IMG/VR virus record: IMGVR_UViG_3300035701_000215
Coordinates: 1-28,129 of that record
Length of the DNA stretch: 28,129 bases
Strand: one strand, 5' to 3'
DNA from: a virus
The notes below the pieces were generated by a model. It saw only the letters and a list, made by a program, of their open reading frames with translations. It was not told the origin of the DNA and did not search any database. Shown piece by piece: positions 300 to 27,947 of the stretch. A program made the translations under genes and the position numbers. The number at the start of each line of letters is the position of its first letter. Positions within the stretch are counted from its first letter, which is position 1.

Positions 300-310
300 A
301 CTATTTATAG
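300..310 (+). promoter_or_regulatory. Candidate late-type promoter (CTATTTATAG)
   Basis: TATTTATA at 302-309 reads toward the gene starting at 324, with 14 bases between motif and ATG. The same 14-base spacing is found before the genes starting at 16078 and 23994. The preceding base is C rather than the usual G. It lies between two plus-strand genes, so its orientation is unambiguous. Promoter function is inferred from recurrence and position. Confidence 0.5.
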
Positions 311-323
311 TAAATCTATAAGA

Positions 324-710
324 ATGGCAAGAATAAAGAGAAAAAGACTTCAATTTAATGAAGATAGTTTAAATGAGTTGTATCAAGAAATTTATAATGA
401 TACCCATAATTTTAAAGCTCAGATAACTGCAATTTTATCTAAATGGTCACCAATGGTGAAAGATGAGGGTAATGTGGCTGCAATGGGTAAAGACATTGTA
501 AATTTGATGAATGCTATTGCAAGAACTAACGATCAAAAAATTGTTTTGGTTAAAATATTGAAGGATATTGTTTTCGCTAAAAAAGGTATTAACGATTCTT
601 CAAATGCTAATGATAATCCTCAACAAATTACATTGAGTGATGAAGCAAAAAGAGCGTTAATGAGAATGGCTGATGATGCCAGAAAAGGTATAGAAGATAG
701 TGGAAACTAA
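324..710 (+). CDS. Hypothetical protein, first gene of the baseplate-hub operon
   Basis: A 128-residue soluble, probably helical protein with a basic N-terminus (MARIKRKRLQF). The centre (about residues 35-90) is well-packed amphipathic helix, and the acidic tail resembles a flexible end. There is no signal peptide, membrane segment or motif I recognise. It starts 14 bases after the TATTTATA motif, and its TAA is followed by 2 bases before the next ATG, so it is likely co-transcribed with the genes through 3489. Its position before a gp5-like hub protein suggests a virion or assembly role, but this is association only. A small-terminase-like role was considered and cannot be supported. Confidence 0.75.
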   Translation: MARIKRKRLQFNEDSLNELYQEIYNDTHNFKAQITAILSKWSPMVKDEGNVAAMGKDIVNLMNAIARTNDQKIVLVKILKDIVFAKKGINDSSNANDNPQQITLSDEAKRALMRMADDARKGIEDSGN

Positions 711-712
711 TA

Positions 713-2026
713 ATGAGCGCAATTGATGATAAAAAATCTATAATAAAACAGATTGGTGTACTCAACTCGGCAAGTAAAAAAGTTGAATTACCCGATCTCA
801 ACGTTACTTTGCCTTCACTTAATAACGATAAAGAACCTATTCCTTTTATGTTAGACACCATTTCAGTTATGGCTGGTAGTCAAGGATTGGAAAAAATGAC
901 TGGCAATATTTTAACAAAATTCGTTCGTAATGTAGAACCATCACTAAAAAAATCAGTAAAAAAACAAACGGTAACACATAACTCAAATAAACCACTTACA
1001 ACAGGATTTATATCTGGATATGCGTTTCCAGTAAAATCAATTGATCTTCATGGTAAGTTAAAAACAAATCCTACTAGTGGTGTTGGAAGTTTAATTTATG
1101 GAAATAATGTTAACAATTTTGATAAATCAATATACAATACTATAAATAATGCTGGTACTGATATAACACATGGCACTGGTGCTGGTGCTGTAATAATGAA
1201 TTATGATAAAACGACAGATAAATTAAAAATAAGACCAGTTACAGGTAGTCAAACAATAGGGGCATTCATCGTTGCTTTTATTGCTGGTTTGGTTCTTATA
1301 AATGAAGTTGAGTTTGTTTCTGGTGTTATTGATGCAATATTTGGTAGTGCATCATCTAAACAAAATAAGACTTTGCAAGAAATAAAAGAAGAAGAAAAAA
1401 TAAAGAAAACGATCAATAAAATTACTAACGGTGAAAATAGTTTTGAATTGACAGAAAATGATTTGTTAGAAATAGAAAATATAGCAAATAATAGATTGGG
1501 AGGAAAACCTAAAGTTGATGTTGGTTGTAGTATTATCGATAGTAATGTTAGTTTAGATGATTTAAAAAATTTATTGGTTAATACCACAGGATCAACTGAT
1601 CCACAAAAGGTTGGTCAAAGTTATGGTGCGTTAATAGATAATAGCTTTGGAAAGGATGTAACTCAAACAAATCCATCAAATAAAAATGCTATTAGAGATG
1701 GTTTTTTTAAGAGATTAATTGCTACTATATTAGCAATTCTTATTACCTCACTTACAACTTCTCCACAAATGCGTATTTTAATTGGTATCGTTAATGGTTT
1801 AAAAAATAATGATAATTTATCTGGTGCTTTAGGGAATCCTCTTGACGACATAAAAAAAGAACATAACCTAATAAAATGTTTGGCAGATTCTGTAGGAAGT
1901 TTAATAAATGAATTTGTGTTTAATACTTTGAAAAGTGAATTAATAAAATTAACAATACCAATAACTACACTAATTTTAGGTGAAAAAATGAAATCATTTA
2001 CAAATATTCTTAATTCATTAACTTAA
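713..2026 (+). CDS. Hypothetical protein with hydrophobic segments, probably virion-associated
   Basis: A 437-residue protein. The N-terminal 170 residues are polar and Gly/Asn/Thr-rich. A strongly hydrophobic stretch follows at about 181-210 (IGAFIVAFIAGLVLINEVEF), then a charged linker of Lys/Glu at about 220-245, and further hydrophobic segments at about 334-353 (RLIATILAILITSLTT) and 410-426. There is no cleavable signal peptide. It starts immediately after the previous stop and ends one base before the next ATG, so it sits in a translationally tight operon with the gp5-like gene. Hydrophobic stretches in a tail-operon protein can belong to tape-measure, hub or membrane-penetrating proteins, but it is short for a tape measure. 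I do not recognise the family. The hydrophobic segments are seen; the virion role is inferred from neighbours. Confidence 0.75.
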   Translation: MSAIDDKKSIIKQIGVLNSASKKVELPDLNVTLPSLNNDKEPIPFMLDTISVMAGSQGLEKMTGNILTKFVRNVEPSLKKSVKKQTVTHNSNKPLTTGFISGYAFPVKSIDLHGKLKTNPTSGVGSLIYGNNVNNFDKSIYNTINNAGTDITHGTGAGAVIMNYDKTTDKLKIRPVTGSQTIGAFIVAFIAGLVLINEVEFVSGVIDAIFGSASSKQNKTLQEIKEEEKIKKTINKITNGENSFELTENDLLEIENIANNRLGGKPKVDVGCSIIDSNVSLDDLKNLLVNTTGSTDPQKVGQSYGALIDNSFGKDVTQTNPSNKNAIRDGFFKRLIATILAILITSLTTSPQMRILIGIVNGLKNNDNLSGALGNPLDDIKKEHNLIKCLADSVGSLINEFVFNTLKSELIKLTIPITTLILGEKMKSFTNILNSLT

Positions 2027-2027
2027 T

Positions 2028-3489: not shown

Positions 3490-3498
3490 ATTTGTTTT

Positions 3499-3630: not shown

Positions 3631-3634
3631 TTAA

Positions 3635-4411
3635 ATGAATTTAGATATTCCCATTCCAACAGACTTATTATATAAGTTTAATGGGATCAAATTTCATGAT
3701 GATATTCATAAATATTATTTAGGTGATAAGAATCTTATCTCTGTAACTACTTTATTACATGAATATCAAGAACCTTTTAATGAACAGTACTGGTCAGAGA
3801 TTAAAGCCGTAGAATATGGTATGACTTCGCAAGGAGTTATTACCATGTGGAAAGCTGGTAATGATAAGTCTAAAATAAAAGGTTCAATCATTCACAACTA
3901 TGCAGAATTGTTGTATAACAATAAGGTTTTTAAATATCCTGCAGAAGAGGTATTAAAAAAACTTGGTGAAGATACAATAAAACCTGAGTATGATATAGTA
4001 AAAGGTTATGTTGATAATTTTTATCGAGATAGCTTCAATAAACTAATTCCAATCAAGACGGAATTCGTTGTCTATGACGAGCTATGGGGTCTTGCTGGTA
4101 TGATGGATATTCTCTTCTGGAATGTAAAGCACAAATGTTTTCAAATATACGACTGGAAGACCAATAAAGAATTCACAATGACTAATGAATATAGTCAAAA
4201 ATTGAAGTATCCACTGTCTAAACTAGATGATTCTCATATCAACATCTACTCTCTTCAATTATCGGCCTATAAATCGATTTTAATGCGTAATACAGGCATT
4301 ATTATCGAAGGGATGTATGTAGTGTGGTTCAATGAAATTAATGAAAATTACAAGGTTATAGAGTGTATAGACTACTCTAAAATTCTACCTAGATTGATAG
4401 GAAATATATAA
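3635..4411 (+). CDS. PD-(D/E)XK nuclease, RecB/Cas4-like exonuclease domain
   Basis: A 258-residue protein with the motif series of the RecB-like PD-(D/E)XK superfamily: an N-terminal SVTTLLHEY block (about 36-44), a KGSIIHNYAE block with His87 and Glu91, Glu143 in the strand TEFVVYDE, GLAGMMD with metal-binding Asp158, the active-site strand YDWKTNK (Asp173, Lys175), and the QLSAY helix (Gln208, Tyr212). The characteristic catalytic set His, Asp, Asp-X-Lys and Gln-X3-Tyr is complete, so the enzyme should be active. There is no four-cysteine iron-sulphur cluster as in AddB or Cas4. Likely role: DNA end processing in replication, recombination or degradation of host DNA. It follows the tail hub genes closely, but a separate candidate promoter comes after it, so it may be the last gene of that operon. 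Confidence 0.8.
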   Translation: MNLDIPIPTDLLYKFNGIKFHDDIHKYYLGDKNLISVTTLLHEYQEPFNEQYWSEIKAVEYGMTSQGVITMWKAGNDKSKIKGSIIHNYAELLYNNKVFKYPAEEVLKKLGEDTIKPEYDIVKGYVDNFYRDSFNKLIPIKTEFVVYDELWGLAGMMDILFWNVKHKCFQIYDWKTNKEFTMTNEYSQKLKYPLSKLDDSHINIYSLQLSAYKSILMRNTGIIIEGMYVVWFNEINENYKVIECIDYSKILPRLIGNI

Positions 4412-4443: not shown

Positions 4444-4454
4444 AGTATTTATAG
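4444..4454 (+). promoter_or_regulatory. Candidate late-type promoter (AGTATTTATAG)
   Basis: TTTTAGTATTTATAG contains the recurrent motif at 4446-4453, 43 bases upstream of the ATG at 4497. It lies between two plus-strand genes, so only the TATTTATA orientation can serve the gene. The leader is longer than for most other sites. Promoter function is inferred. Confidence 0.55.
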
Positions 4455-4496: not shown

Positions 4497-5222
4497 ATGG
4501 CTAATGCTCCAAATTATAAACTTGATCATAAATTAAAATTTAAGCAGGACGATCCGCTTTATTATGTCCTTGAGGGAGATTTGGATTTGAAGTCTAACCA
4601 TATCTATCTGATGGGTATAGAATCATATATCAGTGGTGCTGGAATTGAGGCAGCAAGAGAACCGGGAGTTGAATTTGTTATGGCTAATAGATTTATACGC
4701 AACATAAACGTTTGTATGCGTGTTAATCCAGAAACACCATTAGTAATTCATATGAAAACTTGTGGGGGAGATTGGTGCGAAGGAATGAGCATCTATGATG
4801 CAATACGTACCTTCCCTTGGCCAGTAACAATATTAAACTATACACATGCCCGTTCAATGTCTTCCTTAATATTTCAAGCTGGAAATAAAAGAGTGATGAT
4901 GCCAAATAGTTATTTCATGTTTCATGATGGAACTATTGGTATTGAGGGTACTGTTAAACAAGTAAGGTCATCAATTAAATTTGAAAAAAAAGTTGCTGAC
5001 AAGACTATGTTGGATATTTACTCTAAAGTAATGAAAGAAAGTGGAAAGATGAGCAATAAGACCCTGCAATATATAAGAAAGTGGCTTCGCACTAAAATGG
5101 ATAGAGAAGAGGATGTTTATTTGACTGCAAAAGAGGCTTGTGATCTTGGTCTGGCTGACGAAATTTTTGATGCTAATTGGAGTAAATTAACTGACTACAC
5201 GGAGGCACAACTTAATAGATAA
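4497..5222 (+). CDS. ClpP-like serine protease (S14 family)
   Basis: A 241-residue protein of ClpP fold. Seen directly: a core strand-turn like ClpP (PLVIHMKTCGGDWCEGMSIY), the nucleophile region HARSMSSLIFQAG with Ser120 at the ClpP Ser-Met position, PNSYFMFHDG with His143, and the C-terminal block YLTAKEACDLGLADEI, which parallels ClpP FLSAPEAVEYGLVDSI. Counting back from that block, Asp202 aligns with the catalytic Asp, so the triad looks complete. The first 60 residues differ from bacterial ClpP and include an insertion after the first strand, which may alter docking of an ATPase. Possible roles are processing of virion or prohead proteins, or action within the host proteolysis network. 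It has its own candidate promoter and precedes a small winged-helix gene. Family assignment is strong; role is open. Confidence 0.85.
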   Translation: MANAPNYKLDHKLKFKQDDPLYYVLEGDLDLKSNHIYLMGIESYISGAGIEAAREPGVEFVMANRFIRNINVCMRVNPETPLVIHMKTCGGDWCEGMSIYDAIRTFPWPVTILNYTHARSMSSLIFQAGNKRVMMPNSYFMFHDGTIGIEGTVKQVRSSIKFEKKVADKTMLDIYSKVMKESGKMSNKTLQYIRKWLRTKMDREEDVYLTAKEACDLGLADEIFDANWSKLTDYTEAQLNR

Positions 5223-5595: not shown

Positions 5596-6084
5596 TTAAT
5601 AGTTGAGAATACAACGCCAAGGTTGCAAAGTAAGGGTACATGTTTGTACTTCATCATCATCTTGTGCGTTATCGCCAAAGTCGATGTTAGTAATCATACA
5701 CTGTTGGAGTACCCATTTTTCAACTTCAACACCAGTAGGGTCTAAAGCTTTAACTGTTACAGTTTTCTTGTAACCTGCAGCATAGCCCATTCTACCTGTT
5801 AATGATTCAGCGTGAAGACGAACCCACTCCATCAATTTGGTTGAGGTTGAAGGCCCAATAGTATCGATGAATGTTACTTCAAGGGGTTCCCATTTGTACT
5901 TACCAGCAACGTAGTTAACTTCGTTAATCCAATGAATTTCAACTGGATTGATGCTCATTTTTGGTCTAGCTATTGTTTGAACCTTCCAAACTTCAATTCC
6001 AAGTTCATCTGCGAACTCTACGAAAAATCTGTTTTTCTTTTTTGGTTCATAGTCAAAGGGAATACCTCTTAATAAATCTGCCAT
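5596..6084 (-). CDS. gp19: Tail tube protein, T4 gp19 family
   Basis: A 162-residue protein close in length to T4 gp19 (163 residues). The start MADLLRGIPFDYEPKKKNRF, followed by FFVEFADELGIEVWKVQTIARP, is the classic opening of gp19-type tube proteins. The middle (KWEPLEVTFIDTIGPSTS, KLMEWVRLH) and the ending (DDDEVQTCTLTLQPWRCILNY) also fit. It would polymerise as hexameric rings forming the inner tail tube through which DNA passes, enclosed by the sheath encoded at 6549-9272. Codons ending in C or T (AAC, TAC, GGT, CGT) are more frequent here than in neighbouring genes, as expected for an abundant product. It is a single-gene unit: candidate promoter 64 bases upstream, bidirectional terminator downstream. 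Confidence 0.93.
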   Translation of the reverse strand: MADLLRGIPFDYEPKKKNRFFVEFADELGIEVWKVQTIARPKMSINPVEIHWINEVNYVAGKYKWEPLEVTFIDTIGPSTSTKLMEWVRLHAESLTGRMGYAAGYKKTVTVKALDPTGVEVEKWVLQQCMITNIDFGDNAQDDDEVQTCTLTLQPWRCILNY

Positions 6085-6147: not shown

Positions 6148-6158
6148 GATAAATACTA
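6148..6158 (-). promoter_or_regulatory. Candidate late-type promoter for the tail tube gene (AGTATTTATC)
   Basis: On the minus strand the sequence reads TAGTATTTATCTTAAAA, matching the recurrent motif with a final C. It lies 64 bases upstream of the tail-tube ATG at 6084. The long leader is shared with the tail sheath gene (62 bases). Promoter function is inferred. Confidence 0.5.
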
Positions 6159-6548: not shown

Positions 6549-9272
6549 TTATGCTGCGAATGAAGCACCTGATGGTGAAATAGTGAATTGTAAGCCGATG
6601 AATTCAACTGACTTGGTAGGTACAATTGCAATTTCACCATATAATTCATTTCTGTCTCTAGTTTCAGGAGTGTTATTAGTATCATCCATTTTAACACGGA
6701 ATTGTTCTAAACCTCTTTCTCTTCTAATAGTTTCAAGAATAGGATTAACTTTGTTCAAGAAATTATCAATAGTTGTTTGATCATCTTGTTCAAAAACAAG
6801 TCTGATAGCAACGTTAGAAATCAATACTTTTAATTGTAATAATAATCTTCTTACGTTAACTCTATCAAGTGATGATTGTTTCTTTTGTAAGGTTTTTTGT
6901 CCAAAAATAGCAACCCCAGTTTCAGGGAATGTAGCCATAGGATTAATTCTACCATCATACAATATATCTCTCTCACCAAGAGAAAGTTTTCTTCTTGCTT
7001 TTTTAGCATCAGTAACGCCTCTTTGTAAACCTGCAGGTGCAAACCAAGGGAATGCAATATTATCGTTAAATGCAATAGATTTTGCAACTTCAACAGTTGG
7101 AGGTAAAAATACATTCACATTGTTTGTAGTGTCTTTCAATTGAATCCAAGGATAATATACAGCAGCGTAGCTAGTGTCAATATCTGTGGTATCAAGTAAA
7201 TCAACGATGTCTTGAGCCAATGAAGATGTATCAGGTAGATCAGGTGCATCAAGTAGATATAATGAATCTGCTCTTTTTGTTTCAACCAAATCAATACCTT
7301 CGTTAATAAGTGATAAATTATCACTGAAATTAATACCGGGAGTTGCAAATAAATTTATTGTAACTTGTTCTGGATTAGAGAATGTATCAATAGCAGCTTC
7401 CCATGCTTGGAAGTCGTTGGTTGGAGTAAATCCAGCAGCAACACCATCAAATACTTTACCTTTACCATAAAGATCACCATTACTTCTACTTACTCTATGT
7501 TCATCCCATCCATCAAAACCACCATAAGGTACTAATGTGAATTTTCTTGAAGATTTTAAATTATAAGGATTAGAAACGTTATTTACATCACTAGCAGTTT
7601 GAAAATGTCCAGCACCTGTTAAGAATTGTCCAACTAATGTTGAACCATCATAATATGTACCAGTAGCACCAGAATCCATGTGAAAACCTTTAGATTTAAC
7701 ATGTCCAGATGTTGCATTTCCATTAATTCCACTAATATCAACTCCCGCAAAATTATATGCGTTTTGATTAATACCTGTACCAACTAGATTAGTAGCATCG
7801 TAAGCTCTTTCAGAAATACCTAAATATGTTCTACTAATTTTATCTGTTGTTGTATATGATTGCTTGTAATAAACTTTAGGTGTTTGACCTACAGATGATG
7901 CAGATGTTGCAGATATTGCAAAGTTGTAATATACATATCCTTCAAAACCTGCAGGGAATGAATCTTCTGGTGCGTTAGCATCAAGTTCAAGCATGATATA
8001 TTTGCTTTGTAAATCGTATTCTCCATCGATAGTACCTACTCTAGAACCAACATAATTATTAAGTCCTTTTTGCATAGAACATCTTACGAATGATTCTTTA
8101 ATATTAATAGCACTATCAGTATCAAAAAAATCACGAACGATAATGTCAAACTCTTTTGTTATAGGATCAATATTTGCAATTGAAATTTTAATTTCTTCAT
8201 TTGCTGAATTACCATCAGAGATGGAAATAAATTTGAATAATCTATCTATAGAGCTACCTCTTAATTCAGATACAACCCAAGGTGTCTCAGGTGTTTTAAA
8301 TGATTGTTGATAATTAGTGAATGTAGATGTTGTTGCGTTGATAACTGTTGTAGACACACTATAAGTAAGTCCATCAGCATCTAATTTTTTTATTAGATCA
8401 GGAAATACGGACTCAACATAAAGTTTTGTATTTTTTCCTTTTGGTCTATCACCAAGAACATTCACAATGAAATCTCTTGAATCTTCATTCAATGAAACAA
8501 TATAATCTTCGGTAGAAGAACCAACGGCTCTTAGTGTAAATTTACCAAACACATCACCAGTTCCAACAGTAGTACTATTAGAAATAATAGTTACTGTAGA
8601 AGCATCAAATACTGTTGTTGGTGCTGCATCTGTATTATCAGTTACAGTTGCTCTCGGTCTTAAAATTGCAACAACCATATTGTCATATGCTGCAATTGAT
8701 GTACCTGTATATGTGGTTGTAAGAACATGAACTGTTCCATTTCCTGCACTTAATGTAAGTACATAAATTGATCTTTTTACTGTAGTAAACAATGTAGGAC
8801 TAGTCTTAGTATATCCAGTAAATATTACTGCAGTTTGGCCTGTATTTGTAATAGTAACACCTAAATAAGTGCTGTTAGTAAATCCAACTACTGATGAACC
8901 AGAAGTGGTTAATCCTGTAGATGCGTAATTAACTGCGGAATTTATTTTAATGCCCCATGCTGTACCAGCATTATATCCTGAGAGACCTAAGACTCTAGTA
9001 ACATAAAGTTGATTCGAGTTATCTAAATATGCATTTCCAACATAAGGTAATTGAAATTTCAAGTCTCCAGTAGGAAATTTTTCGATAGATTGGCTACCAA
9101 ATCTTGAAGTAAATTGACCTTTATCTTCAACTGCTACTGGTTGAAATGCTGGCCCTTTTGGTGTTTCTCCAACTAATCCTAATGTGGTTACACCCACTGT
9201 TTTAGTTACGAATGATAAGTCTTGCTCTCTGAATTTTACTCCCGGGCTAACGAATACAAAGTTATTTGCCAT
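6549..9272 (-). CDS. gp18: Tail sheath protein, T4 gp18 family
   Basis: A 907-residue contractile tail sheath protein. The N-terminus (NNFVFVSPGVKFREQDLSFV, then VGVTTLGLVGETPKGPAFQP) and the next block (FTSRFGSQS, YVTRVLG) are typical of gp18-type sheaths. The C-terminal domain is equally clear: NPMATFPETGVAIFGQKTLQ, SSLDRVNVRRLLLQLK, FEQDDQTTIDNFLNKVNPIL and a final beta region (LYGEIAIVPTKSVEFIGLQF). It is about 250 residues longer than T4 gp18. The extra length falls in the middle, including a Thr/Ser/Val-rich region at about residues 115-290 that probably forms surface domains on the sheath. Hexameric rings surround the tube and contract on infection. It is transcribed alone from a candidate promoter with a 62-base leader and closed by a strong terminator. 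Confidence 0.95.
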   Translation of the reverse strand: MANNFVFVSPGVKFREQDLSFVTKTVGVTTLGLVGETPKGPAFQPVAVEDKGQFTSRFGSQSIEKFPTGDLKFQLPYVGNAYLDNSNQLYVTRVLGLSGYNAGTAWGIKINSAVNYASTGLTTSGSSVVGFTNSTYLGVTITNTGQTAVIFTGYTKTSPTLFTTVKRSIYVLTLSAGNGTVHVLTTTYTGTSIAAYDNMVVAILRPRATVTDNTDAAPTTVFDASTVTIISNSTTVGTGDVFGKFTLRAVGSSTEDYIVSLNEDSRDFIVNVLGDRPKGKNTKLYVESVFPDLIKKLDADGLTYSVSTTVINATTSTFTNYQQSFKTPETPWVVSELRGSSIDRLFKFISISDGNSANEEIKISIANIDPITKEFDIIVRDFFDTDSAINIKESFVRCSMQKGLNNYVGSRVGTIDGEYDLQSKYIMLELDANAPEDSFPAGFEGYVYYNFAISATSASSVGQTPKVYYKQSYTTTDKISRTYLGISERAYDATNLVGTGINQNAYNFAGVDISGINGNATSGHVKSKGFHMDSGATGTYYDGSTLVGQFLTGAGHFQTASDVNNVSNPYNLKSSRKFTLVPYGGFDGWDEHRVSRSNGDLYGKGKVFDGVAAGFTPTNDFQAWEAAIDTFSNPEQVTINLFATPGINFSDNLSLINEGIDLVETKRADSLYLLDAPDLPDTSSLAQDIVDLLDTTDIDTSYAAVYYPWIQLKDTTNNVNVFLPPTVEVAKSIAFNDNIAFPWFAPAGLQRGVTDAKKARRKLSLGERDILYDGRINPMATFPETGVAIFGQKTLQKKQSSLDRVNVRRLLLQLKVLISNVAIRLVFEQDDQTTIDNFLNKVNPILETIRRERGLEQFRVKMDDTNNTPETRDRNELYGEIAIVPTKSVEFIGLQFTISPSGASFAA

Positions 9273-9333: not shown

Positions 9334-9344
9334 AATAAATACTT
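9334..9344 (-). promoter_or_regulatory. Candidate late-type promoter for the tail sheath gene (AGTATTTATT)
   Basis: On the minus strand the sequence reads AAAAAGTATTTATTAAAAAG, 62 bases upstream of the sheath ATG at 9272. Motif position 10 is T instead of A. Leader length is nearly equal to that of the tail-tube gene. Function inferred. Confidence 0.45.
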
Positions 9345-9375: not shown

Positions 9376-9390
9376 TTGTATTTATAAAAA
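9376..9390 (+). promoter_or_regulatory. Candidate late-type promoter (TGTATTTATAAAAA)
   Basis: GTATTTATA at 9378-9386 reads toward the gene at 9406, with 19 bases between motif and ATG. With the minus-strand copy 40 bases to the left it makes a divergent promoter pair in the 133-base gap. Confidence 0.5.
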
Positions 9391-11445: not shown

Positions 11446-11950
11446 TAAATTGAATAATAATGACATAACCAAAAGTGTTTACTTTTGAAAGCTTAATTAA
11501 ATTCGTTGAAATATCCGCAGTGTTTATAATAAAAGTATCACCATTAGAAAATTTTATAGTGACTGTTCCGTCAACATTTGAATTAAGTGTCCAAGTCACA
11601 GACATATCTGTAGGGTTGCCAAGTAAACAAGGATAATTAGCAGCGACATTATTAGTACCACTATAAGTATAATTTGGTTCAGGAGTTAAACTATCCCAAA
11701 TAGTGTCTGAAAATAATCCACTGACTTTTAATTCTGTTTTAGCACATGTAGATGTTGTAGCTGTTTTGAGACCTTGAATTACTGTTACATTTTTAAATGT
11801 CCACGTTCCCTTAAGTGTAGCTTTTACTAGATCGAGATTTGTTACTACAACAGGGTTTGTATTGGATGGTGTAGGGTCTCCAGATTTTGAACAATTGAAG
11901 AATATTATTGCTATAACAGCAAATAACGATAGAAATACATATTTTTTCAT
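11438..11950 (-). CDS. Lipoprotein with lipocalin-like domain
   Basis: A 170-residue protein starting with a clear lipoprotein signal: MKKYVFLSLFAVIAIIFFNC with Cys20 as the acylation site, followed by SKSGDPTPSN. The FFNC-SK form is frequent in Flavobacteria, where Asn before the Cys is tolerated. The mature part begins LVKATLKGTWTFKNV (about residue 41 on), with Cys69 and Cys108 that could form a disulphide and alternating beta strands to the end, resembling the lipocalin-like domains of Bacteroidota lipoproteins. The product should reach the host envelope. Such phage lipoproteins often act in superinfection exclusion or host conversion, but that is inference. It lies 47 bases downstream of the pentapeptide-repeat gene on the same strand and converges on the end of the 9406 gene with an 8-base overlap. 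Confidence 0.8.
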   Translation of the reverse strand: MKKYVFLSLFAVIAIIFFNCSKSGDPTPSNTNPVVVTNLDLVKATLKGTWTFKNVTVIQGLKTATTSTCAKTELKVSGLFSDTIWDSLTPEPNYTYSGTNNVAANYPCLLGNPTDMSVTWTLNSNVDGTVTIKFSNGDTFIINTADISTNLIKLSKVNTFGYVIIIQFTK

Positions 11951-11997
11951 GATTTTTAGTTTATTTGTTATACGTAAATAACGAAAAAATGTTTTAG

Positions 11998-12845: not shown

Positions 12846-12856
12846 TTATAAATACT
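12846..12856 (-). promoter_or_regulatory. Candidate late-type promoter abutting the start codon (AGTATTTATA)
   Basis: On the minus strand TTTTAGTATTTATAAATATG runs straight into the ATG at 12843, with 3 bases between TATTTATA and ATG. A full match to the motif, but the spacing implies a leaderless mRNA if it works as a promoter here. Confidence 0.45.
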
Positions 12857-12872: not shown

Positions 12873-12881
12873 CTATTTATG
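12873..12881 (+). promoter_or_regulatory. Weak candidate promoter abutting the start of the next gene (CTATTTATG)
   Basis: TATTTATG at 12874-12881 is followed by ATT and then ATG at 12885, the same 3-base spacing as the divergent partner. It overlaps the upstream ATG at 12879, favouring the start at 12885. Two mismatches to the consensus make this tentative. Confidence 0.3.
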
Positions 12882-16090: not shown

Positions 16091-16102
16091 ACTATAAATA
16101 CT
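16091..16102 (-). promoter_or_regulatory. Candidate late-type promoter for the gp15-like gene (AGTATTTATAG)
   Basis: On the minus strand AAGTATTTATAGTT lies 14 bases before the ATG at 16078. The divergent + gene at 16110 has no motif of its own in the TATTTATA orientation. Confidence 0.5.
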
Positions 16103-16109: not shown

Positions 16110-16463
16110 ATGTTATTAGAAAGGAAAGAACACAAAAAAGATGGTGATCAAATAACGTTAATCGAAGCGTTTTATGATTCAACCAATATTTTAAAAACAA
16201 ATTACATTCCTGAAAGGAATTTGTTGTTTATTTTTTTTAAGGGTGGATCAGTATATTCATATTCGAATATTGATCGTGAACTCTACGAGAAATTCGAAAA
16301 TTGTGAATCCCAAGGAAAGTTTTTCATTGCCGAAATCAAGAAAAAACCGCAAGTTTATAACTATTTGAAGGAATATAAAATGTATGAGTTTGAAAAACAG
16401 GACATTAATGAAATCATTGAAAATTTAAAATTAACTAAATCCCCTCAAAATGAGAACATTTAG
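16110..16463 (+). CDS. KTSC-domain protein
   Basis: A 117-residue protein whose residues about 20-82 match the KTSC domain: YDSTNILKTNYIPERN, LLFIFFKGGSVYSYSNIDRE, then YEKFENCESQGKFF and a terminal IKKKPQVY. The hallmark sequence is an S-N-I strand, a hydrophobic strand ending in G-G-x-V-Y-x-Y, a helix and the S-x-G-x-F/Y loop. The domain occurs alone or fused to nucleases and synthetases; its biochemical role is not well established, though nucleic-acid or RNA-related functions have been suggested. It opens the plus-strand accessory run at 16110-22341 and is divergent from the gp15-like gene. The tail (residues 85-117) is charged and helical. Confidence 0.8.
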   Translation: MLLERKEHKKDGDQITLIEAFYDSTNILKTNYIPERNLLFIFFKGGSVYSYSNIDRELYEKFENCESQGKFFIAEIKKKPQVYNYLKEYKMYEFEKQDINEIIENLKLTKSPQNENI

Positions 16464-16494
16464 CGCATGATATACGTATAATAGTAAAAAGGCC

Positions 16495-19240: not shown

Positions 19241-19663
19241 ATGATGGGGGTATTATTTTTAATCGTCATTTTGAGTTTTTTGTATCTTATTATACAAAAT
19301 ATTGAATCAAAAGATCATTCAAATCAAATGTGGGAAATATTGGTTCCAGCATCAAATAAAGATCAAGAATTTAGTTATGATCATCATAAAGAATGGGATT
19401 TATATGTAAAATCTTTGGCTGGTGGATTAACCATTATGAAGACTGCTAAAGGCGAATGGTTAAATGCTGAGGGTAAATTATACATAGATAGGGTCATACC
19501 AGTTCGAATTAAGTGCAAAAAGAAGCATATTAAAAAAATTATTGAATTTACTATTAAACATTACAACCAAGAGGCCGTTCTTGCGTATAAGATAAGTGAT
19601 GATGTGGTATTGGCTCACAAAACCAGTACTGGAATCCTTTTTGAACGAAAAAACAAATTCTAA
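19241..19663 (+). CDS. Small membrane-anchored hypothetical protein
   Basis: A 140-residue protein. Residues 2-20 (GVLFLIVILSFLYLIIQNI) form one transmembrane helix at the N-terminus, without a cleavage site. The remaining 120 residues form a soluble domain with the pattern SLAGGLTIMKTAKGEW, YIDRVIPVRIKCKKKHI, IIEFTIKHYNQEAVLAYKIS, an alpha/beta arrangement. I have seen similar 'GGLT ... G-x-W ... QEAVL' proteins in phages and bacteria without an assigned function. It starts 3 bases after the previous stop; its TAA overlaps the next ATG (TAATG). Confidence 0.65.
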   Translation: MMGVLFLIVILSFLYLIIQNIESKDHSNQMWEILVPASNKDQEFSYDHHKEWDLYVKSLAGGLTIMKTAKGEWLNAEGKLYIDRVIPVRIKCKKKHIKKIIEFTIKHYNQEAVLAYKISDDVVLAHKTSTGILFERKNKF

Positions 19664-20883
19664 TGGGATATTTGAAAGAAAAATATACACAACAGTTCAT
19701 CCGAGATAATAATCTTATCTTGGGTGAGGTTATTATAGGGTCGTATGCATTTAATCTGCATACCCCTAAATCTGACCGTGATTTATATGGTATCTATCAT
19801 CTTACAAAGGATGATTTTTACTCATTACATCATCGTGCTGATAAGTCGTATAACGATGTTGTTGAAAAACAAAGTCCGAAGGATCAGGATATTACTTATA
19901 TGGAAGTGGGAAAATTCTTTGAACTTCTGGCTCATGGTAATCCAAATGTTCTTGAAATGCTTGCAGCATATCAAGATATAAACAATGCTATCAATTGGAA
20001 CGGCAATACTCATCTTATTGACGAAATTGACATCAATAGAGTATTATCAAAAAAATGTCAAACATCATTTGGACAATATGCTGCAACCCAAATAAAGAAA
20101 GCTCGTGGACTTAATAAGAAAATTGTTAACCCTGTAGAAGTAACGAGAAAAACTCCTATTGATTTTTGTTATTTATTAAGCAAAGGAAAAACAAAACCAC
20201 TAAAAAAAGCACTTGAAGCAATTAATTTTCCGCAAAAATTTTGTGGTGTTGTTGCATTACCAAATGCTAGAGATATGTATGCCATCTATTTTGATGTTGT
20301 ATCACATGCTTTATTTGGAGGACATTTTAGTGAGGAACGTGTTGAAGGAATGAAAGAGTCAAGACGTAGGGATGGTGAACCAATGGGATATGGATTTAAA
20401 GGGATTGAACTTGAAAATTCTAATGAAATTAGGCTATCATCGATTCCTAAATTGGAAACAATACCTAAAGGGGATATTTACTTTGTGGGTCATATAAACT
20501 ACAATAAAGACGGTTATGTCCAGCACTGCAAAGATTATAAAGAATATTGGGATTGGACGAATAATCGCAATGAAGAGCGTTATAATAACAATCTCAAGCA
20601 GAATTATGACACCAAGAACATATCTCATTGTGTAAGGCTTTTAAGCGTTGCTAAAGAGATTGCAGAAGGAAAGGGTATAATCCTCAAGCGTACAGAAGAT
20701 CGTCAATTCTTGATGGATATAAAGCTTGGGAAGATCGAATATGACGTTGCTATGGGATATGCAGAAAATATTGCCAATTCTTTGGAAAATTTGTATAAAA
20801 ACAGTACCTTGCCGAACGATCCAGATTTTAATTATCTGAACGATAAACTTATCGAAATTCGCAAGAAACTATATGACGCATAA
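19663..20883 (+). CDS. RlaP-type nucleotidyltransferase (Pol beta superfamily)
   Basis: A 406-residue protein that fits the RlaP/PF10127 family of predicted nucleotidyltransferases. Residues 26-46 contain GSYAFNLHTPKSDRDLYGIY, the family signature GS-x-A-x-x-L-x-T-P-x-S-D-x-D with metal-binding Asp38 and Asp40. A third acidic region follows in QDITYMEVGKFFELL (about 75-89), and the family block GNPNVLEML at 92-100. The rest is a long helical C-terminal domain (about 120-400) of unclear role. RlaP proteins have been linked to RNA repair gene neighbourhoods, so RNA 3'-end modification after damage is the leading idea, not proven. It overlaps the thymidylate synthase gene by 11 bases in another frame. 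Family assignment strong, reaction inferred. Confidence 0.85.
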   Translation: MGYLKEKYTQQFIRDNNLILGEVIIGSYAFNLHTPKSDRDLYGIYHLTKDDFYSLHHRADKSYNDVVEKQSPKDQDITYMEVGKFFELLAHGNPNVLEMLAAYQDINNAINWNGNTHLIDEIDINRVLSKKCQTSFGQYAATQIKKARGLNKKIVNPVEVTRKTPIDFCYLLSKGKTKPLKKALEAINFPQKFCGVVALPNARDMYAIYFDVVSHALFGGHFSEERVEGMKESRRRDGEPMGYGFKGIELENSNEIRLSSIPKLETIPKGDIYFVGHINYNKDGYVQHCKDYKEYWDWTNNRNEERYNNNLKQNYDTKNISHCVRLLSVAKEIAEGKGIILKRTEDRQFLMDIKLGKIEYDVAMGYAENIANSLENLYKNSTLPNDPDFNYLNDKLIEIRKKLYDA

Positions 20884-22875: not shown

Positions 22876-23994
22876 TTATCCTGTCATGATAGGGAACATT
22901 GGAGGTTGAAATCCTCTTTCTTTGTTTACGTTGGCAGCAATTTCTGCTCTATCTCTTGTCATTTGAACTAGAGATAATTTCATTAAAGATTGAAGAATTA
23001 TTTCTAATGTTTTTTCCTTTAATTGAATACCTTCTTCAAGAATATGTCTATAGTCCATAGTCAATTCTTTTTGTGCTGAACCAAGTTCACCACTATAAAA
23101 TCCTCTAATACCTCCAATAGATATTTTACATTGAGCAATAAATAAATCTCTTATTTGTGTTCTCGCTACAGTGTTCAATTTATCCCATTTAAGAATATTT
23201 ATAGGAGCATCACTAGGTAATTTTATAATATCAGTATTATCTTCTAAGCATTTATCTCTTCCTTGGTGGTTGGTATCGTAGTAGAAATACCAAACTTTTG
23301 ATCCTTCGTAATGTCTTGAAAAACCATTAGAAATTTCATGACGACTTCCCGGGATTGGATACAAATACAATAATTTAGTACCATTTGGGCCACCAGTAAC
23401 TCGGTATGTTAATTCGGATTGAAGAATTCTTCTTTTTGTGCTTCTATCTTGTGCTGAAAGAAGTAAAGAATATGTGGGTTGTACATATTGGGCAGGTCTA
23501 CCAAGATAGCTCCATCCGAAGTTACTAGCACTCCAATTGGTTAATGCGAAGGGGTCTACAAGACCACTATCGATCTGTGGTGGGGTCGTCCATAGGATTT
23601 CATTGATCTCTCTATGGGCTGGAATTACATAAATTTGAGTGTCTGCAGAGATAACCACGAAATCTCTCTGTAGATGCCAAGAATTGCCCTCTGGAGCGTT
23701 CATACCTAGTCCAACCTGCTTAGAGTAGGCATGTGTGAAACTACGCATAAAGTCGGTAGATTTGCTTGTATAGGCTTCCACGAAATCGGCACTATTTATC
23801 TCTAAACCTTGTAGTGCAACCCATTGTTGTTCAATTAACCAATTATTCAAATAACTACTATAATCTTCAATTACCATTTCCAGATATGAGTCCATCATTT
23901 CCTCTTTTAATTCAAATGGTCTGAGAGGATAACCCATTACGTGTTTTACGAAAAGGTATAATTTTTCTCTATCTTCTTTGGTTATTAGTGACAT
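22876..23994 (-). CDS. gp13: Neck protein, T4 gp13-like
   Basis: A 372-residue protein, longer than T4 gp13 (309). The opening, REKLYLFVKHVMGYPLRPFE and LKEEMMDSYLEMVIEDY, aligns with the gp13 start VKTQLDNFIKNKLGKPVINV and the helix that follows. The mid-region contains FVVISADTQIYVIPAHREIN (a strand like the gp13 VPEDTIGV region) and a Trp-rich stretch. A helical C-terminal region (QLKEKTLEIILQSLMKLSLV) may mediate oligomerisation. Together with the gp14-like gene downstream it reproduces the T4 neck pair. Transcribed from a candidate promoter 14 bases before the ATG, divergent from the 24028 gene. The assignment relies on the N-terminal match and synteny. Confidence 0.7.
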   Translation of the reverse strand: MSLITKEDREKLYLFVKHVMGYPLRPFELKEEMMDSYLEMVIEDYSSYLNNWLIEQQWVALQGLEINSADFVEAYTSKSTDFMRSFTHAYSKQVGLGMNAPEGNSWHLQRDFVVISADTQIYVIPAHREINEILWTTPPQIDSGLVDPFALTNWSASNFGWSYLGRPAQYVQPTYSLLLSAQDRSTKRRILQSELTYRVTGGPNGTKLLYLYPIPGSRHEISNGFSRHYEGSKVWYFYYDTNHQGRDKCLEDNTDIIKLPSDAPINILKWDKLNTVARTQIRDLFIAQCKISIGGIRGFYSGELGSAQKELTMDYRHILEEGIQLKEKTLEIILQSLMKLSLVQMTRDRAEIAANVNKERGFQPPMFPIMTG

Positions 23995-24007: not shown

Positions 24008-24018
24008 ACATAAATACT
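24008..24018 (-). promoter_or_regulatory. Candidate late-type promoter for the neck genes (AGTATTTATG)
   Basis: On the minus strand TTAGTATTTATGTAAAA lies 14 bases before the ATG at 23994, the same spacing as at 302-324 and 16093-16078. The last base is G instead of A. The divergent + gene at 24028 has no TATTTATA motif. Confidence 0.5.
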
Positions 24019-24027
24019 AATAAATCT

Positions 24028-24525
24028 ATGTTTTCATTTGAATACTCTATAGAGTTAAATCCACATGGTAGACCAGTCATTACACCCACAGAAAAGACAG
24101 ATAAAGAACTTGATTTCATTGAACATAAGTTTATGGCTCTGGAATTGGCAAGAACAATCATAACCAATACAATAGATAATCACGATGAAAATCCTGAAAA
24201 GTATTCATTGCAGCCATCTGACCTTGCAGGTTTATTAGCTGCTAAATCTGATATTGAAAAAATTTGTGATATATTTGCAAACGCAATAAAGAACCAAATG
24301 AATCTAATGGATGATGCTAATGCAATACTTAATCCACAAACATATAATTTACAGGTCAAAACAATGAAAGATTTATATTCATTAAATTATAATGGTATCA
24401 TCTATGACACTACAATTTTTAAAAGAGTAGAAGGATTACGAGTAAAAGTTCTTGCAGATATGAGAATTTATGAATTAAGAGGTGGAATAGATAATAACAA
24501 CTGGATTGATGTCACAAACGAATAG
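24028..24525 (+). CDS. Hypothetical protein
   Basis: A 165-residue soluble protein. It starts with a beta strand (FSFEYSIELNPHGRPVI), then is mainly helical (ELDFIEHKFMALELARTIIT, PSDLAGLLAAKSDIEKICDI). No enzymatic motif is visible and no signal peptide. It overlaps the following helicase start by 17 bases in another frame, suggesting joint expression with a DNA-metabolism gene. Divergent from the neck genes. Not recognised. Confidence 0.7.
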   Translation: MFSFEYSIELNPHGRPVITPTEKTDKELDFIEHKFMALELARTIITNTIDNHDENPEKYSLQPSDLAGLLAAKSDIEKICDIFANAIKNQMNLMDDANAILNPQTYNLQVKTMKDLYSLNYNGIIYDTTIFKRVEGLRVKVLADMRIYELRGGIDNNNWIDVTNE

Positions 24526-26083
24526 CATAACACATAATTACGATCCAAGATCAACACCAGAACAAGTAGCTATTTATGATTGGGTCGTGAATGGAACTGG
24601 TAATTTATTAATTAGAGCACGTGCTGGTTCTGGAAAGACTAGTACGTTGGTGGGTATTTCTAAACTTCTAGACCCATCGATCAGAACCACATTTCTAGCA
24701 TTCAATAAACACATCCAAGTTGAATTAAAAAGTAAATTACCAAAACATGTATTCTGTTATACTGCACATGGACTTGGATATTCAGCTATTAAGAAGAAAT
24801 ATAAAGATGTCGTTGTCGATAATCTTAAGGTTGATAAGTTGATAAATAAACATCTTAAAACTTGGAACCCCAAACAAATTGATAATATTGTTCTATATAT
24901 TAGAAATTTCAAGAAAATGATTAATCTCATTAGATTATCATTAACACTAAATAAGAAATATGTCCCTGATTTGTGTGAAAGATATGATATAAAATTTGAC
25001 ACTCAAGACATTGATAGAATGTTTTTAATTTTAGAGGAAATGCTCAATGATAAGAAGACTATTGATTTCACGGATATGGTATATCTTCCTGTTGTTGACC
25101 CAAAGATATGGCTATTTCCTCAAGAATTTGTTTTAATTGATGAGGCACAAGATTTATCTAAAGCACAACATGAGTTGGTAAAAAAATGTGTGAAAAAAGA
25201 TAAAGCAGGAAAGTTTGTTGGACGAATGGTTTTTGTTGGTGATGATATGCAAGCTATTTATGGTTTTACAGGGTCGGATGCATTTTCATTCATGAATCTT
25301 TCGAAAATACCTAACACTATAATACTCCCATTGACTACGACATTTAGATGTGCTAAAAATATTGTTCTAGAAGCTAATACCATCGTAAAGGATATTAGAC
25401 CTATGGATAATGCTCCTGATGGTGTTGTAAGAAAAGGATCAGTATTGGATGAGGCTGTTGCAGGTGATTTTGTATTATCTAGAAAAACATTTCCTTTAGT
25501 AAAAATGTTTTTTGATCTTCTTGTTCAAAATAAAAAGTCTTATATTAAAGGGAGTGATATTGGTAAAACCTTGATAGATTTTACATATGGAAAAAGTTCA
25601 ATGTCACAATTAGATGCTTCACTAACAAACAAATTATCTGAATGTAGAACTAATTTATCCAGACATGGTGTCATTAATTATCAAGATGATATAGGTTATA
25701 CCACTTTAAATGATATGATAAAAATACTTCGTTTTTTTATGACTATGGTCGATGGAAATATAGAAGCATTAAAAGAACGTATACTATATATTTTTAAAGG
25801 TGGTAGTTCCGAAGATGATCTAGTGGATGAGAATGGTATAGCAATATTAAATAAAAGTGATGGAATTGTTTTAAGTACAGTACACAAATCAAAGGGTCTT
25901 GAATCGGATAAAGTGTTTATCATCATGCCTAAAGATATGCCTTTGAGAACATCACAACCTTGGCAATATCAACAGGAAATGAATTTAAAATATATTGCAA
26001 TTACACGAGCTAAGAGAGAATTGATTTATGATATGGATTGGGTTGTTGATGACGGTACATTCGAATCATTTACTAATGATTAA
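24509..26083 (+). CDS. UvrD/Rep-like superfamily 1 DNA helicase
   Basis: A 524-residue helicase started at ATG 24509 (a TTG three bases earlier also fits). Motifs in order: Q-type DPRSTPEQVAIYDW; Walker A IRARAGSGKTSTL with Lys43; Walker B LIDEAQD (about 209-215); motif III VFVGDDMQAIYGFTGSDAF; motif IV TFRCAKNIV; motif V STVHKSKGLESDKVFII; motif VI YIAITRAKRELIY. The set is complete, so it should be an active ATP-dependent 3'-to-5' helicase of the UvrD/Rep type, though it is shorter than UvrD (720) because the B subdomains are small. In the phage it could unwind replication or recombination intermediates; T4 uses the SF1 helicase Dda in a related role. Its end overlaps the opposite-strand membrane gene by 11 bases. 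Confidence 0.9.
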   Translation: MSQTNSITHNYDPRSTPEQVAIYDWVVNGTGNLLIRARAGSGKTSTLVGISKLLDPSIRTTFLAFNKHIQVELKSKLPKHVFCYTAHGLGYSAIKKKYKDVVVDNLKVDKLINKHLKTWNPKQIDNIVLYIRNFKKMINLIRLSLTLNKKYVPDLCERYDIKFDTQDIDRMFLILEEMLNDKKTIDFTDMVYLPVVDPKIWLFPQEFVLIDEAQDLSKAQHELVKKCVKKDKAGKFVGRMVFVGDDMQAIYGFTGSDAFSFMNLSKIPNTIILPLTTTFRCAKNIVLEANTIVKDIRPMDNAPDGVVRKGSVLDEAVAGDFVLSRKTFPLVKMFFDLLVQNKKSYIKGSDIGKTLIDFTYGKSSMSQLDASLTNKLSECRTNLSRHGVINYQDDIGYTTLNDMIKILRFFMTMVDGNIEALKERILYIFKGGSSEDDLVDENGIAILNKSDGIVLSTVHKSKGLESDKVFIIMPKDMPLRTSQPWQYQQEMNLKYIAITRAKRELIYDMDWVVDDGTFESFTND

Positions 26084-26393: not shown

Positions 26394-26394
26394 A

Positions 26395-26829
26395 TTAATA
26401 ATATTGAATGCTTTCCCAAGTTAAGGAAAAATTTAAATTAGTTTCATTTGTCTTATACCAAAAGATAACAGTACTATTTTCAAATGGTATTATAGACCAA
26501 AATCCTTCTGGAAATGCACCACTAATAAGAATGCCATTTGCAAATGTTCTAATACCTGAAATGTATATTCTCGTTTGATTACCTTGATACCAAGAATGAT
26601 TTATTATATTAAATTCATATTTGGTATTGTATATTGGATCATCTATTTCTGTTTTAGTTATATATATTGACATTCGTATATGCGTTGCTAATGAAGCATC
26701 ACCATAGATTACATCATCAAATTTTTGGTGTAATACTTTATTGTTCGATTGAATTTGATTATAGTTTTGAGCATTAGAATTCCATATAATTGAAAGTAGA
26801 AGAAAAAATAGTAATATAGTTTTTTTCAT
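26395..26829 (-). CDS. Exported protein with cleavable signal peptide
   Basis: A 144-residue protein with a typical Sec signal peptide: MKKTILLFFLLLSIIWNSNA with a cleavage site after SNA, before Gln21. The mature part is beta-rich with aromatic residues (YEFNIINHSWYQGNQTRIYI, GAFPEGFWSIIPF). It contains no cysteine and no known catalytic motif. The product should reach the periplasm or outer membrane. It follows the coiled-coil gene at 26833-27330 by 3 bases in the same cluster. A role at the host envelope is likely from export; the precise one is unknown. Confidence 0.7.
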   Translation of the reverse strand: MKKTILLFFLLLSIIWNSNAQNYNQIQSNNKVLHQKFDDVIYGDASLATHIRMSIYITKTEIDDPIYNTKYEFNIINHSWYQGNQTRIYISGIRTFANGILISGAFPEGFWSIIPFENSTVIFWYKTNETNLNFSLTWESIQYY

Positions 26830-26832
26830 AAT

Positions 26833-27330
26833 TTAGTTGTTTGCTTGTACTATAAATATACACAAAAAGAAAAAAACTGCTAATCCCTTCCAAATATAAA
26901 CCTGTGTTTGACCCTTTTGCATTCTTATGACCTTACTTTTTTCATCATAAAATGATCCATTTAAATGTCTATAGCTTTTATCTAATTCAGAATATTTCTG
27001 TCCCATTTCTAAAATTTTAGCCTTTAAAGACTCTACCTCATTCTCCATAGAAGCTATTTGAATGTTTGCCCTTTTTAATTCATCAAATGTTTTTTCGGAA
27101 GTTTTTGACTGTCTTTCAAGATCAGCCAATGTAGTTTCATAATCAATTTTTATTGATTGGTATCTAATTAATAAATTTTTATAGTCTTCAATATCTTTTC
27201 GAAGGGCATCATGTTTTGTTTTAGTTAAAACAATTAATTCCTCATCATTACTTTTGACGTTTGGAATTGACTGGCTCAATATCACTCCACTTATATTTAA
27301 GAATAAGACTAGCAAGAGAATCTTTTTCAT
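26833..27330 (-). CDS. Exported coiled-coil protein with C-terminal membrane helix (spanin candidate)
   Basis: A 165-residue protein: Sec signal at residues 1-19 (MKKILLLVLFLNISGVILS), a long coiled coil at about 40-135 (for example EVESLKAKILEMGQKYSEL), and a terminal hydrophobic helix (VYIWKGLAVFFFLCIFIV) at about 143-161. This places the coiled coil in the periplasm, tethered at its C-terminus, an arrangement resembling a spanin component. It has no lipobox cysteine, so it is not a classical o-spanin or u-spanin lipoprotein. Its first 83 bases overlap the end of the upstream gene in another frame, as in Rz/Rz1-type pairs. Lysis role is inferred. Confidence 0.65.
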   Translation of the reverse strand: MKKILLLVLFLNISGVILSQSIPNVKSNDEELIVLTKTKHDALRKDIEDYKNLLIRYQSIKIDYETTLADLERQSKTSEKTFDELKRANIQIASMENEVESLKAKILEMGQKYSELDKSYRHLNGSFYDEKSKVIRMQKGQTQVYIWKGLAVFFFLCIFIVQANN

Positions 27331-27631
27331 GTATTAATTTTATTATTTGAATATTTTTTTCGCTAATTATCGTATTATTTTGTTTTTGTTCATTGGTAAT
27401 AATATCGATAACACCACTAAGAGCATCAATACTATCGTTTTTTGTGAGTAATATTTTGGTTAATGCTTCATTAACCGCAACATCTCTTTTTAATTGTTCA
27501 TCATTAGATCGAATACTAATAGCTAAATTGGATGTGTTATTAAAGAACACATATCCACTAAATGATGCAAAAATCAGAATGAAAACAACGAATCCGATTA
27601 TTCCTAATTTATTTAATTTTTGTTTATCCAT
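27248..27631 (-). CDS. i-spanin-like membrane protein (N-terminal TM, coiled coil)
   Basis: A 127-residue protein: short basic N-terminus (MDKQKLNKLG), transmembrane helix at about 10-30 (IIGFVVFILIFASFSGYVFF), then a periplasmic coiled coil (KRDVAVNEALTKILLTKNDS to KLIHEKDSLASLILKY). This is the architecture of Rz-type inner-membrane spanins, which span the periplasm to an outer-membrane partner during lysis. Its last 83 bases overlap the start of the next gene in another frame. Spanins diverge greatly in sequence, so assignment rests on architecture and gene order. An endolysin is not in the window. Confidence 0.6.
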   Translation of the reverse strand: MDKQKLNKLGIIGFVVFILIFASFSGYVFFNNTSNLAISIRSNDEQLKRDVAVNEALTKILLTKNDSIDALSGVIDIITNEQKQNNTIISEKNIQIIKLIHEKDSLASLILKYKWSDIEPVNSKRQK

Positions 27632-27635
27632 GTTG

Positions 27636-27926
27636 TTATTTATCTATTTTAAGTTTTATATACACATCTTGAATTTCTTTTCTTAAATCCTCTTCTGCTT
27701 TAATTCTCTCCTTTAAATCAGCAATTCTTTCATTTGAGACTTCACTGATTTTTAACCATAATTTCACAATCACACCCGCTTGTACCACAACAATAAAATA
27801 TAGAATACCAACAACTGCGTTATTTTGTCTTAAACTATCGATTGCACCACCAGCATCAACCAATGTTTCTGTTTGTGCTAGTACAAATAAGTGTAGTAAT
27901 GCCATTAGAGAGAAATATAATTTCAT
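27636..27926 (-). CDS. Small membrane protein, holin candidate
   Basis: A 96-residue protein. An N-terminal signal-like segment (MKLYFSLMALLHLFVLAQ) is followed by a short polar stretch, one transmembrane helix at about 38-57 (AVVGILYFIVVVQAGVIVKL) and a charged coiled-coil tail (RIADLKERIKAEEDLRKEIQ). With the tail positively and negatively charged and cytoplasmic by the positive-inside rule, it looks like a small holin- or antiholin-type protein, but no family is recognised. First gene of the five-gene minus-strand cluster, with a candidate promoter 11 bases before its ATG and 4 bases to the next gene. Not secure. Confidence 0.6.
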   Translation of the reverse strand: MKLYFSLMALLHLFVLAQTETLVDAGGAIDSLRQNNAVVGILYFIVVVQAGVIVKLWLKISEVSNERIADLKERIKAEEDLRKEIQDVYIKLKIDK

Positions 27927-27935
27927 ATTCTTTTT

Positions 27936-27947
27936 TTTATAAATACT
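27936..27947 (-). promoter_or_regulatory. Candidate late-type promoter of the membrane-protein cluster (AGTATTTATA)
   Basis: On the minus strand AAAAAGTATTTATAAAAAAAAG lies 11 bases before the ATG at 27926. The neighbour upstream is on the same strand and ends at a terminator, so the TATTTATA orientation is unambiguous here. Confidence 0.5.

Follow-up and report, generated by a model that had tools for sequence, protein, structure and literature searches.

Is TATTTATA, a motif that recurs between the genes of a 28,129-base stretch of an IMG/VR virus record (IMGVR_UViG_3300035701_000215), a promoter, and if so, which protein would read it? The stretch, hereafter the window, is a fragment of a contractile-tailed phage, and a reading made from its letters alone had proposed that the motif is a phage-specific late promoter. 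Analysis of the window and its relatives confirmed that the motif is real and directional, and the aligned sites point, most probably, to a late promoter made of one -10-like element. We consider it probable that this promoter is used by the host core RNA polymerase joined by a sigma-like protein, a member of the family whose C-terminal part is encoded at 3-287, at the left end of the window.

In the window, TATTTATA has 16 matches against 8.6 expected, a count reached by none of 100 shuffles, and AGTATTTATA, with at most one mismatch, has 20 against 10.0 expected (one shuffle in 100 reaches 20). Exact copies of AGTATTTATA number four, and those of the reversed control one. Nine of the 16 plain TATTTATA matches fall within called genes, so that the bare 8-mer is not specific, whereas GTATTTAT in gaps is. 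The putative late promoters of the window are as follows.

300..309, plus strand: ACTATTTATA, putative late promoter of the gene at 324 (motif match)
4444..4453, plus strand: AGTATTTATA, putative late promoter of the head-maturation-protease-like gene 4497-5222 (motif match)
6148..6157, minus strand: AGTATTTATC, putative late promoter of the tail tube gene (5596-6084, minus strand; motif match)
9334..9343, minus strand: AGTATTTATT, probable late promoter of the tail sheath gene (6549-9272, minus strand; motif, and a sense site at the orthologous place in the relatives below)
9377..9386, plus strand: TGTATTTATA, putative late promoter of the gene at 9406 (motif match)
12847..12856, minus strand: AGTATTTATA, putative late promoter of the gene 11998-12843 (ATG on the presumed start base, which would make the message leaderless)
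16093..16102, minus strand: AGTATTTATA, putative late promoter of the gene 15254-16078 (motif match)
24009..24018, minus strand: AGTATTTATG, probable late promoter of the 372-residue gene 22876-23994 (motif, also sense before the orthologues below)
27938..27947, minus strand: AGTATTTATA, putative late promoter of the gene 27636-27926 (motif match)

The sites listed in the sequence-only reading are present, but its 'weak' one at 12874 overlaps the ATG at 12879 and is not credible. Another candidate, ATATTTATAG at 26851 (minus strand), ahead of the gene at 26829, was excluded, as it lies within the closing part of a coding sequence and its first base is less usual for the clade. The coordinates bear out the distance of 14 bases said to be shared by the ATGs at 324, 16078 and 23994, and the gaps ahead of the genes of the metabolic run at 16.5-22.3 kb do lack the motif. 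The statement that the motif always reads toward its gene holds for the same-strand gaps, where all three sites (302, 4446 and 27938) are in the sense direction, but not for the divergent ones, which are uninformative because either direction serves a gene. With only three sites in same-strand gaps, and with TATTTATA matching inside genes, whole relatives were therefore tested.

The sheath protein encoded in the window has 107 relatives in IMG/VR, some of them on contigs of 247-388 kb, and 80 of the 107 were carried forward; matches among named phages include Flavobacterium phage immuto, which has T4-type capsid genes (gp20, gp23). The motif was tested and found in the whole of the relatives G001, G003, G007, G011 and G012 and in 100 of the 160 kb of immuto (1-50 kb and 110-160 kb). 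Gene calling was mechanical (ATG, 60 codons or more), and the same-strand gaps counted were those of 20 nucleotides (nt) or longer. Counts of GTATTTAT in the sense and antisense directions were 40 and 0 in G001 (175 gaps), 48 and 10 in G003 (200 gaps) and 22 and 2 in G007 (144 gaps); the variant with A as its first base, ATATTTAT, gave 32 and 2 in G011 (214 gaps) and 41 and 3 in G012 (187 gaps). In immuto, [AC]TATTTAT occurs 18 times in sense and never in antisense in the 23 gaps of 110-160 kb, and six and two times, respectively, in the 31 gaps of 1-50 kb. Shuffles of these gap sets gave mean sense counts of 0.6 to 7.1, and the convergent gaps of G001, G003, G007, G011 and G012 hold 4, 2, 1, 1 and 2 sites. 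In 10 of 12 relatives AGTATTTATA is more frequent than its reversed control (e.g. 35 vs. 0 in G004 and 51 vs. 7 in G003), with no excess in G011 (5 vs. 6) and G012 (6 vs. 6); as TATTTAT reads the same backwards, this control is conservative.

When 8-mers were ranked by sense minus antisense counts, GTATTTAT came first in G001, in G003 and in the pooled relatives (which include some overlapping loci from the same contigs), ATATTTAT in G011 and G012, and ACTATTTA in the L093-L114 group, while T4, the control, gave TATAAATA. The order in G007 was TATTTATA, then the host-type TATATTTG and, in fourth place, GTATTTAT. As the top 8-mer differs by clade, the TATTTAT core is shared and the base before it (G, A or C) is clade-specific. 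The k-mer ranking recovers the motif without prior choice, and the outcome that the sequence-only reading had named as refuting it, occurrence across genomes with neither enrichment nor direction bias, did not arise; chance A+T-richness was rejected as a source of the motif by the shuffles, the k-mer ranking and the sense bias in the gaps of the relatives. The sites are also conserved in place. Sheath loci with 100 nt or more of upstream sequence number 60, with sheath identities down to 31%; all 60 have [ACG]TATTTAT in the sense direction, and 13 have it in antisense; the remaining 20 of the 80 loci were left out as truncated matches, for a short upstream region or as repeats of a contig already used. 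For the 372-residue gene (26 of 30 loci used), 21 loci have a sense site and four an antisense one, and in 12 the gene begins exactly 15 nt after the 8-mer.

Many virion genes lie behind the motif. In the annotated late region of immuto, a sense site is present in 17 of the 31 gaps that reach 20 nt and an antisense one in none, as against six and three of 28 in the annotated 1-50 kb region (Fisher p 0.015); the late gene list excludes two small minus-strand genes and one cut gene, the early list two small minus-strand genes, the tRNAs and the last, cut gene. Among the named virion genes preceded by such a gap, nine of 11 have a sense site (terminase, portal, tail fibre, structural protein, tail-fibre-like protein, sheath, tail completion, hub and tape measure). 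In G001, a PHROG scan covered 17 of the 50 genes preceded solely by the late class and 20 of the 35 preceded solely by the second promoter class described below, too few for a test. It named sheath, baseplate hub, tail fibre, portal, ribonucleotide reductase and tRNA nucleotidyltransferase among the late-class targets, and rIIA and polynucleotide kinase among those of the second class. The claim that the motif precedes virion genes is thus borne out by immuto and by the sheath loci, but the reductase and the nucleotidyltransferase of G001 carry it as well. Some observations count against a late promoter read by the sigma-like protein: the six gaps with a sense site in the 1-50 kb region of immuto, the absence of a site before its major capsid gene and before one other tail fibre gene among the 11 named virion genes, and phage LR756508, in which TATTTAT stands in one sense and two antisense positions among 44 gaps (66 of 484 kb) despite a homologue of the sigma-like protein. 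On balance the sense bias, the k-mer recovery, the sheath loci and the excess in the late region of immuto support the late promoter first proposed. The label 'late' itself rests on gene content, from which we infer the timing.

Where would transcription begin? Counting the first base of the motif as 0, base +12 is A in 84% and base +13 in 81% of the 211 sites whose ATG lies at least 12 nt downstream, compared with 41-49% at +17 to +23. The distance from the 8-mer to the ATG has a lower limit: among 263 sites it is 0-3 nt in two, 4-6 nt in 29 and 13-19 nt in 97, and 12 further called ATGs that fall inside the motif are probably miscalled starts. An ATG 4 or 5 nt after the 8-mer places its A on base +12 or +13, and this coincidence suggests that the start base is likely to be that A and that some messages, e.g. 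that of gene 11998-12843 in the window, are likely to be leaderless. In favour of a signal acting at the RNA level, in translation or processing of the leader, the sites lie near start codons, the distances peaking at 4-5 and 15-18 nt; but they extend from 4 to more than 60 nt, and the void at 0-3 nt lies exactly where the initiating A would be. The conserved A and the near-absence of ATGs at 0-3 nt favour a promoter, and we regard a leader signal as very improbable. No conserved -35 element was seen in the aligned sites of G001 (52 sites) and G003 (63 sites).

We propose that in this clade [A]GTATTTAT[A] would serve as the sole -10-like element of late promoters, recognised without a -35 element by a holoenzyme in which the core RNA polymerase of the host, presumably a member of the Bacteroidota, carries the phage sigma-like protein in place of the host sigma; RNA would start at the A 4-5 nt past TATTTATA, leaving the message leaderless where the ATG lies on that A.

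Such an arrangement would resemble that of T4, whose late promoter is likewise a single -10-like octamer without a -35 element, set before virion genes, and whose gp55 is likewise a phage sigma-region-2 protein, region 2 being predicted in the present case. The T4 octamer TATAAATA spans -13 to -6 (PMC1524935), and the region-2 domain of gp55 reads its -10-like element on the non-template strand (PMC7892883), a mode of reading that by analogy the sigma-like protein may share. The outer bases TAT..ATA are identical in the two motifs, whereas the centre is AA in T4 and TT here, where a clade-specific G, A or C is added in front. The sequence-only reading took the element for the reverse complement of that of T4 and a distinct element; this is true of TATTTATA, but since the sense strand holds TATTTATA, a central change from TAT-AA-ATA to TAT-TT-ATA is the more useful description, TATAAATA being the rarer orientation in upstream gaps (nine sense and 22 antisense in G001, 22 and 52 in G012). 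Phage Aeh1, with its late promoter CTAAATA and a diverged gp55 (PMC1524935), is an earlier example in which a shifted late motif goes with a diverged late sigma, although its sequence and host group differ from those considered here. The T4 system also includes gp33 and the gp45 clamp; phrog_223, the gp45 clamp family, was found in two of 14 records, T4 and a weak match in G004 (0.0013), other clamp families not having been sought.

Could the host's own primary sigma read the motif as a strong variant promoter? The bases TA..T are common to the motif and the Bacteroidota -7 element TAnnTTTG. The late motif has no TTG at -33, however, and TTG-N20-TAnnTTTG forms a separate sense-biased class in the same genomes, with sense and antisense counts of 52 and 9 in G011, 30 and 6 in G012 and 18 and 4 in G003 (13 and 1 in G007, with N19). 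We therefore judge this possibility decidedly unlikely. We take TTG-N19/20-TAnnTTTG to be the Bacteroidota host-type consensus, and these sense-biased host-type promoters point to Bacteroidota as the hosts.

The k-mer ranking also yielded ACGTATAA and AACCTT, which are parts of one bipartite element, AAC-N17-CGTATA. It exceeds its reversed control in G001 (40 vs. 8), G003 (24 vs. 6), G004 (17 vs. 6) and G008 (11 vs. 6), stands at 1 vs. 0 in the window, and shows no excess in G002, G005, G006, G007, G009-G012, immuto and T4. Its sites are distributed differently from the late ones: the region 160-280 kb of G001 holds 23 of 37 CGTATA sites but three of 52 late sites, and 160-240 kb of G003 holds 20 of 30 and five of 63, respectively. 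Two features of the window belong here.

16455..16480, plus strand: AAC-N17-CGTATA, putative promoter of the second class, before the gene at 16495, the first of the metabolic run without the late motif
11969-11974, minus strand: ACGTATA with AAAC one base off, before the gene 11438-11950

The element resembles promoters of extracytoplasmic function (ECF) sigma factors. Genes for ECF-sized sigmas are present in these genomes but also in several that lack the class, so their pairing with it is only a candidate one.

The sequence-only reading had presumed a sigma-like factor not seen in the window; the C-terminal fragment of a likely one is in fact present.

3..287, plus strand: C-terminal 94 codons of the sigma-like protein, cut by the left end of the window, candidate reader of the motif (phmmer and hidden Markov model, HMM, match to full-length relatives)

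Profiles of T4 gp55 and of sigma region 2, run on the relatives, led to a 257-residue protein of G002, which is matched by orthologues in G001, G003, G011 and immuto and by the open reading frame (ORF) 3-287, itself 91% identical to the family protein of L007. In many relatives, as in the window, this gene and the sheath gene are on opposite strands, the former ~4-8 kb past the latter; its neighbourhood may differ in G007, G011, G012 and immuto, where it lies at ~78.2-78.9 kb (MW353175, for immuto). Of 18 records, the family HMM detects the protein in 16; the two exceptions are T4, with its gp55, and the 127 kb fragment G014. Among 50,697 phage records searched with tblastn, only four immuto records, in which the gene is annotated as hypothetical, and LR756508 (homologue E 6.6e-35) match. 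G007 and immuto, which have both motif and family, give no match to Sigma70_r2 at E ≤ 10, which leaves the 3-287 family as the one sigma-like family found wherever the motif was tested and found.

The AlphaFold model of the protein has a mean predicted local distance difference test score of 78, and its residues 15-124 align with region 2 of sigma-E (4lup; Z 8.6, root-mean-square deviation 2.8, 93 residues); the 50 VIA-align matches listed are, by title, all sigma factors or sigma-containing complexes. Among the 50 matches listed from a viral structure library, seven have a probability of at least 0.95 and comprise four named sigma factors (two of them late sigma factors), one uncharacterised protein and two nameless ones. 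The PHROG scan of the family gave phrog_1740, RNA polymerase sigma factor, in eight of 24 rows (best 4.2e-4; the first row had no sigma match), and Pfam Sigma70_r2 was found in eight of 24 (best 8.6e-4), below the curated Pfam standard for most. ZW10_C2, with matches in 12 rows (best 1.2e-4) and thus more than Sigma70_r2, was set aside as a chance helical match. Taken together, we have moderate confidence in a predicted region-2-like domain.

Conservation is high in the C-terminal part, which by prediction closes with a helix-turn-helix-like pair; gp55 is not known to have such an end. The protein is also longer than gp55 (~250 residues), and homology between the two has weak backing: phrog_234, the test for gp55, matches the immuto protein at 0.008 and that of G011 at 0.03, and because the profile comparison is weak, we did not class the protein as a gp55. 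Within 130 nt upstream of the sigma-like gene the late motif was found in none of 22 relatives (12 nt only in L007). An attempt to tie the base before TATTTAT (G, A or C) to region-2 residues in 15 aligned proteins gave no clean pattern.

Several results count against the 3-287 family as reader. The model has a predicted template modelling score of 0.46, helical proteins can, by the tool's own warning, reach VIA-align Z values below ~13 by chance, plain Foldseek on the PDB gave no match at E ≤ 0.001 but scattered sigma chains among unrelated helical proteins, the viral library gave none at E ≤ 0.001, and hhalign of seven gp55s with the family gave a probability of 7% (E 0.0048). Other sigma genes are present in most relatives; two small ORFs (~118 residues) match the T4 gp55 family better than the sigma-like protein does, G010:98389-98535 (minus strand, E 1.8e-9) and G005:279636-279911 (minus strand, 0.002), and G001 has a second weak family match at 219853-220170. 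The late promoter might then be read by another phage sigma, either ECF-sized (~180-210 residues) or one of the small gp55-like ORFs of G010 and G005, and Sigma70_r2 is indeed above the cut-off in 11 of 14 records, often in two or more copies. Yet G007 and immuto have the motif and the 3-287 family without Sigma70_r2, and the separate class of G001 and G003, with AAC as a -35-like element and CGTATA as -10, would suit ECF sigmas. We consider another sigma unlikely, and the 3-287 protein, from its co-occurrence with the motif and its predicted fold, the probable reader.

Two further observations concern the family. In some relatives the sigma-like gene has as its neighbour a second ORF of ~125-145 codons that the family HMM picks up (E 1e-18 to 1e-23) and that may be a duplicate or a co-factor, and the match to the sigma-like gene in G009:101994-102842 (minus strand) contains one in-frame TAA. 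The second ORFs, all on the minus strand, are:

L033:11920-12312, second family-HMM ORF
L028:13117-13491, second family-HMM ORF
L031:18458-18832, second family-HMM ORF
L045:10230-10613, second family-HMM ORF
L063:7095-7532, second family-HMM ORF

Jumbo phages such as phiKZ and AR9 also have short late elements, with polymerases of their own (PMC5312081), and as the present phages are jumbo phages too, the motif might be a late promoter of a phage-encoded multi-subunit RNA polymerase. The motif is unlike the AACA-N6-TA/G or TATG given there, however, and the Rpb1_2 domain (PF00623) was found in none of 14 records while its control succeeded in 14 of 14 cellular genomes, although divergent phage subunits could escape such a search. 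PF00940, the single-subunit phage polymerase, was found in none of the 14 records, but its control likewise matched nowhere. A phage-encoded multi-subunit polymerase as reader of the motif thus seems extremely improbable, and use of the host core by the sigma-like protein remains the preferred explanation. Group 2 jumbo phages likewise have phage sigma factors, no RNA polymerase of their own being reported, and some Bacteroidetes hosts, and in the part of that report available no promoter motif is assigned to their sigma factors (PMC7824862). Among the literature matches listed, none describes the present motif as a late promoter.

We put forward tentatively, at somewhat less than even chances, that these mostly uncultured Bacteroidota phages (160-390 kb) run a staged swapping of sigma factors: host-type TTG-N19/20-TAnnTTTG promoters, ECF-like AAC-N17-CGTATA promoters in some clades, and late TATTTATA promoters. 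These last would be served by a sigma family so far unrecognised, which joins region 2 to a conserved helix-turn-helix-like C-terminus, and no gp45-type clamp would take part; some of the messages would be leaderless. If true, this would illustrate the remodelling, in Bacteroidota phages, of a late switch like that of T4. The motif would provide a readable map of late genes for huge phages known mostly from metagenomes, and a 'hypothetical' protein of immuto can be named as a likely late sigma factor; since a Flavobacterium isolate (Flavobacterium sp. LMO8) supports growth of immuto, the model as a whole is open to bench testing.

The window encodes other recognisable products besides those listed above.

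3635-4411: exonuclease-like gene
19663-20883: RlaP-type nucleotidyltransferase (RNA repair)
24506-26083: UvrD-like helicase

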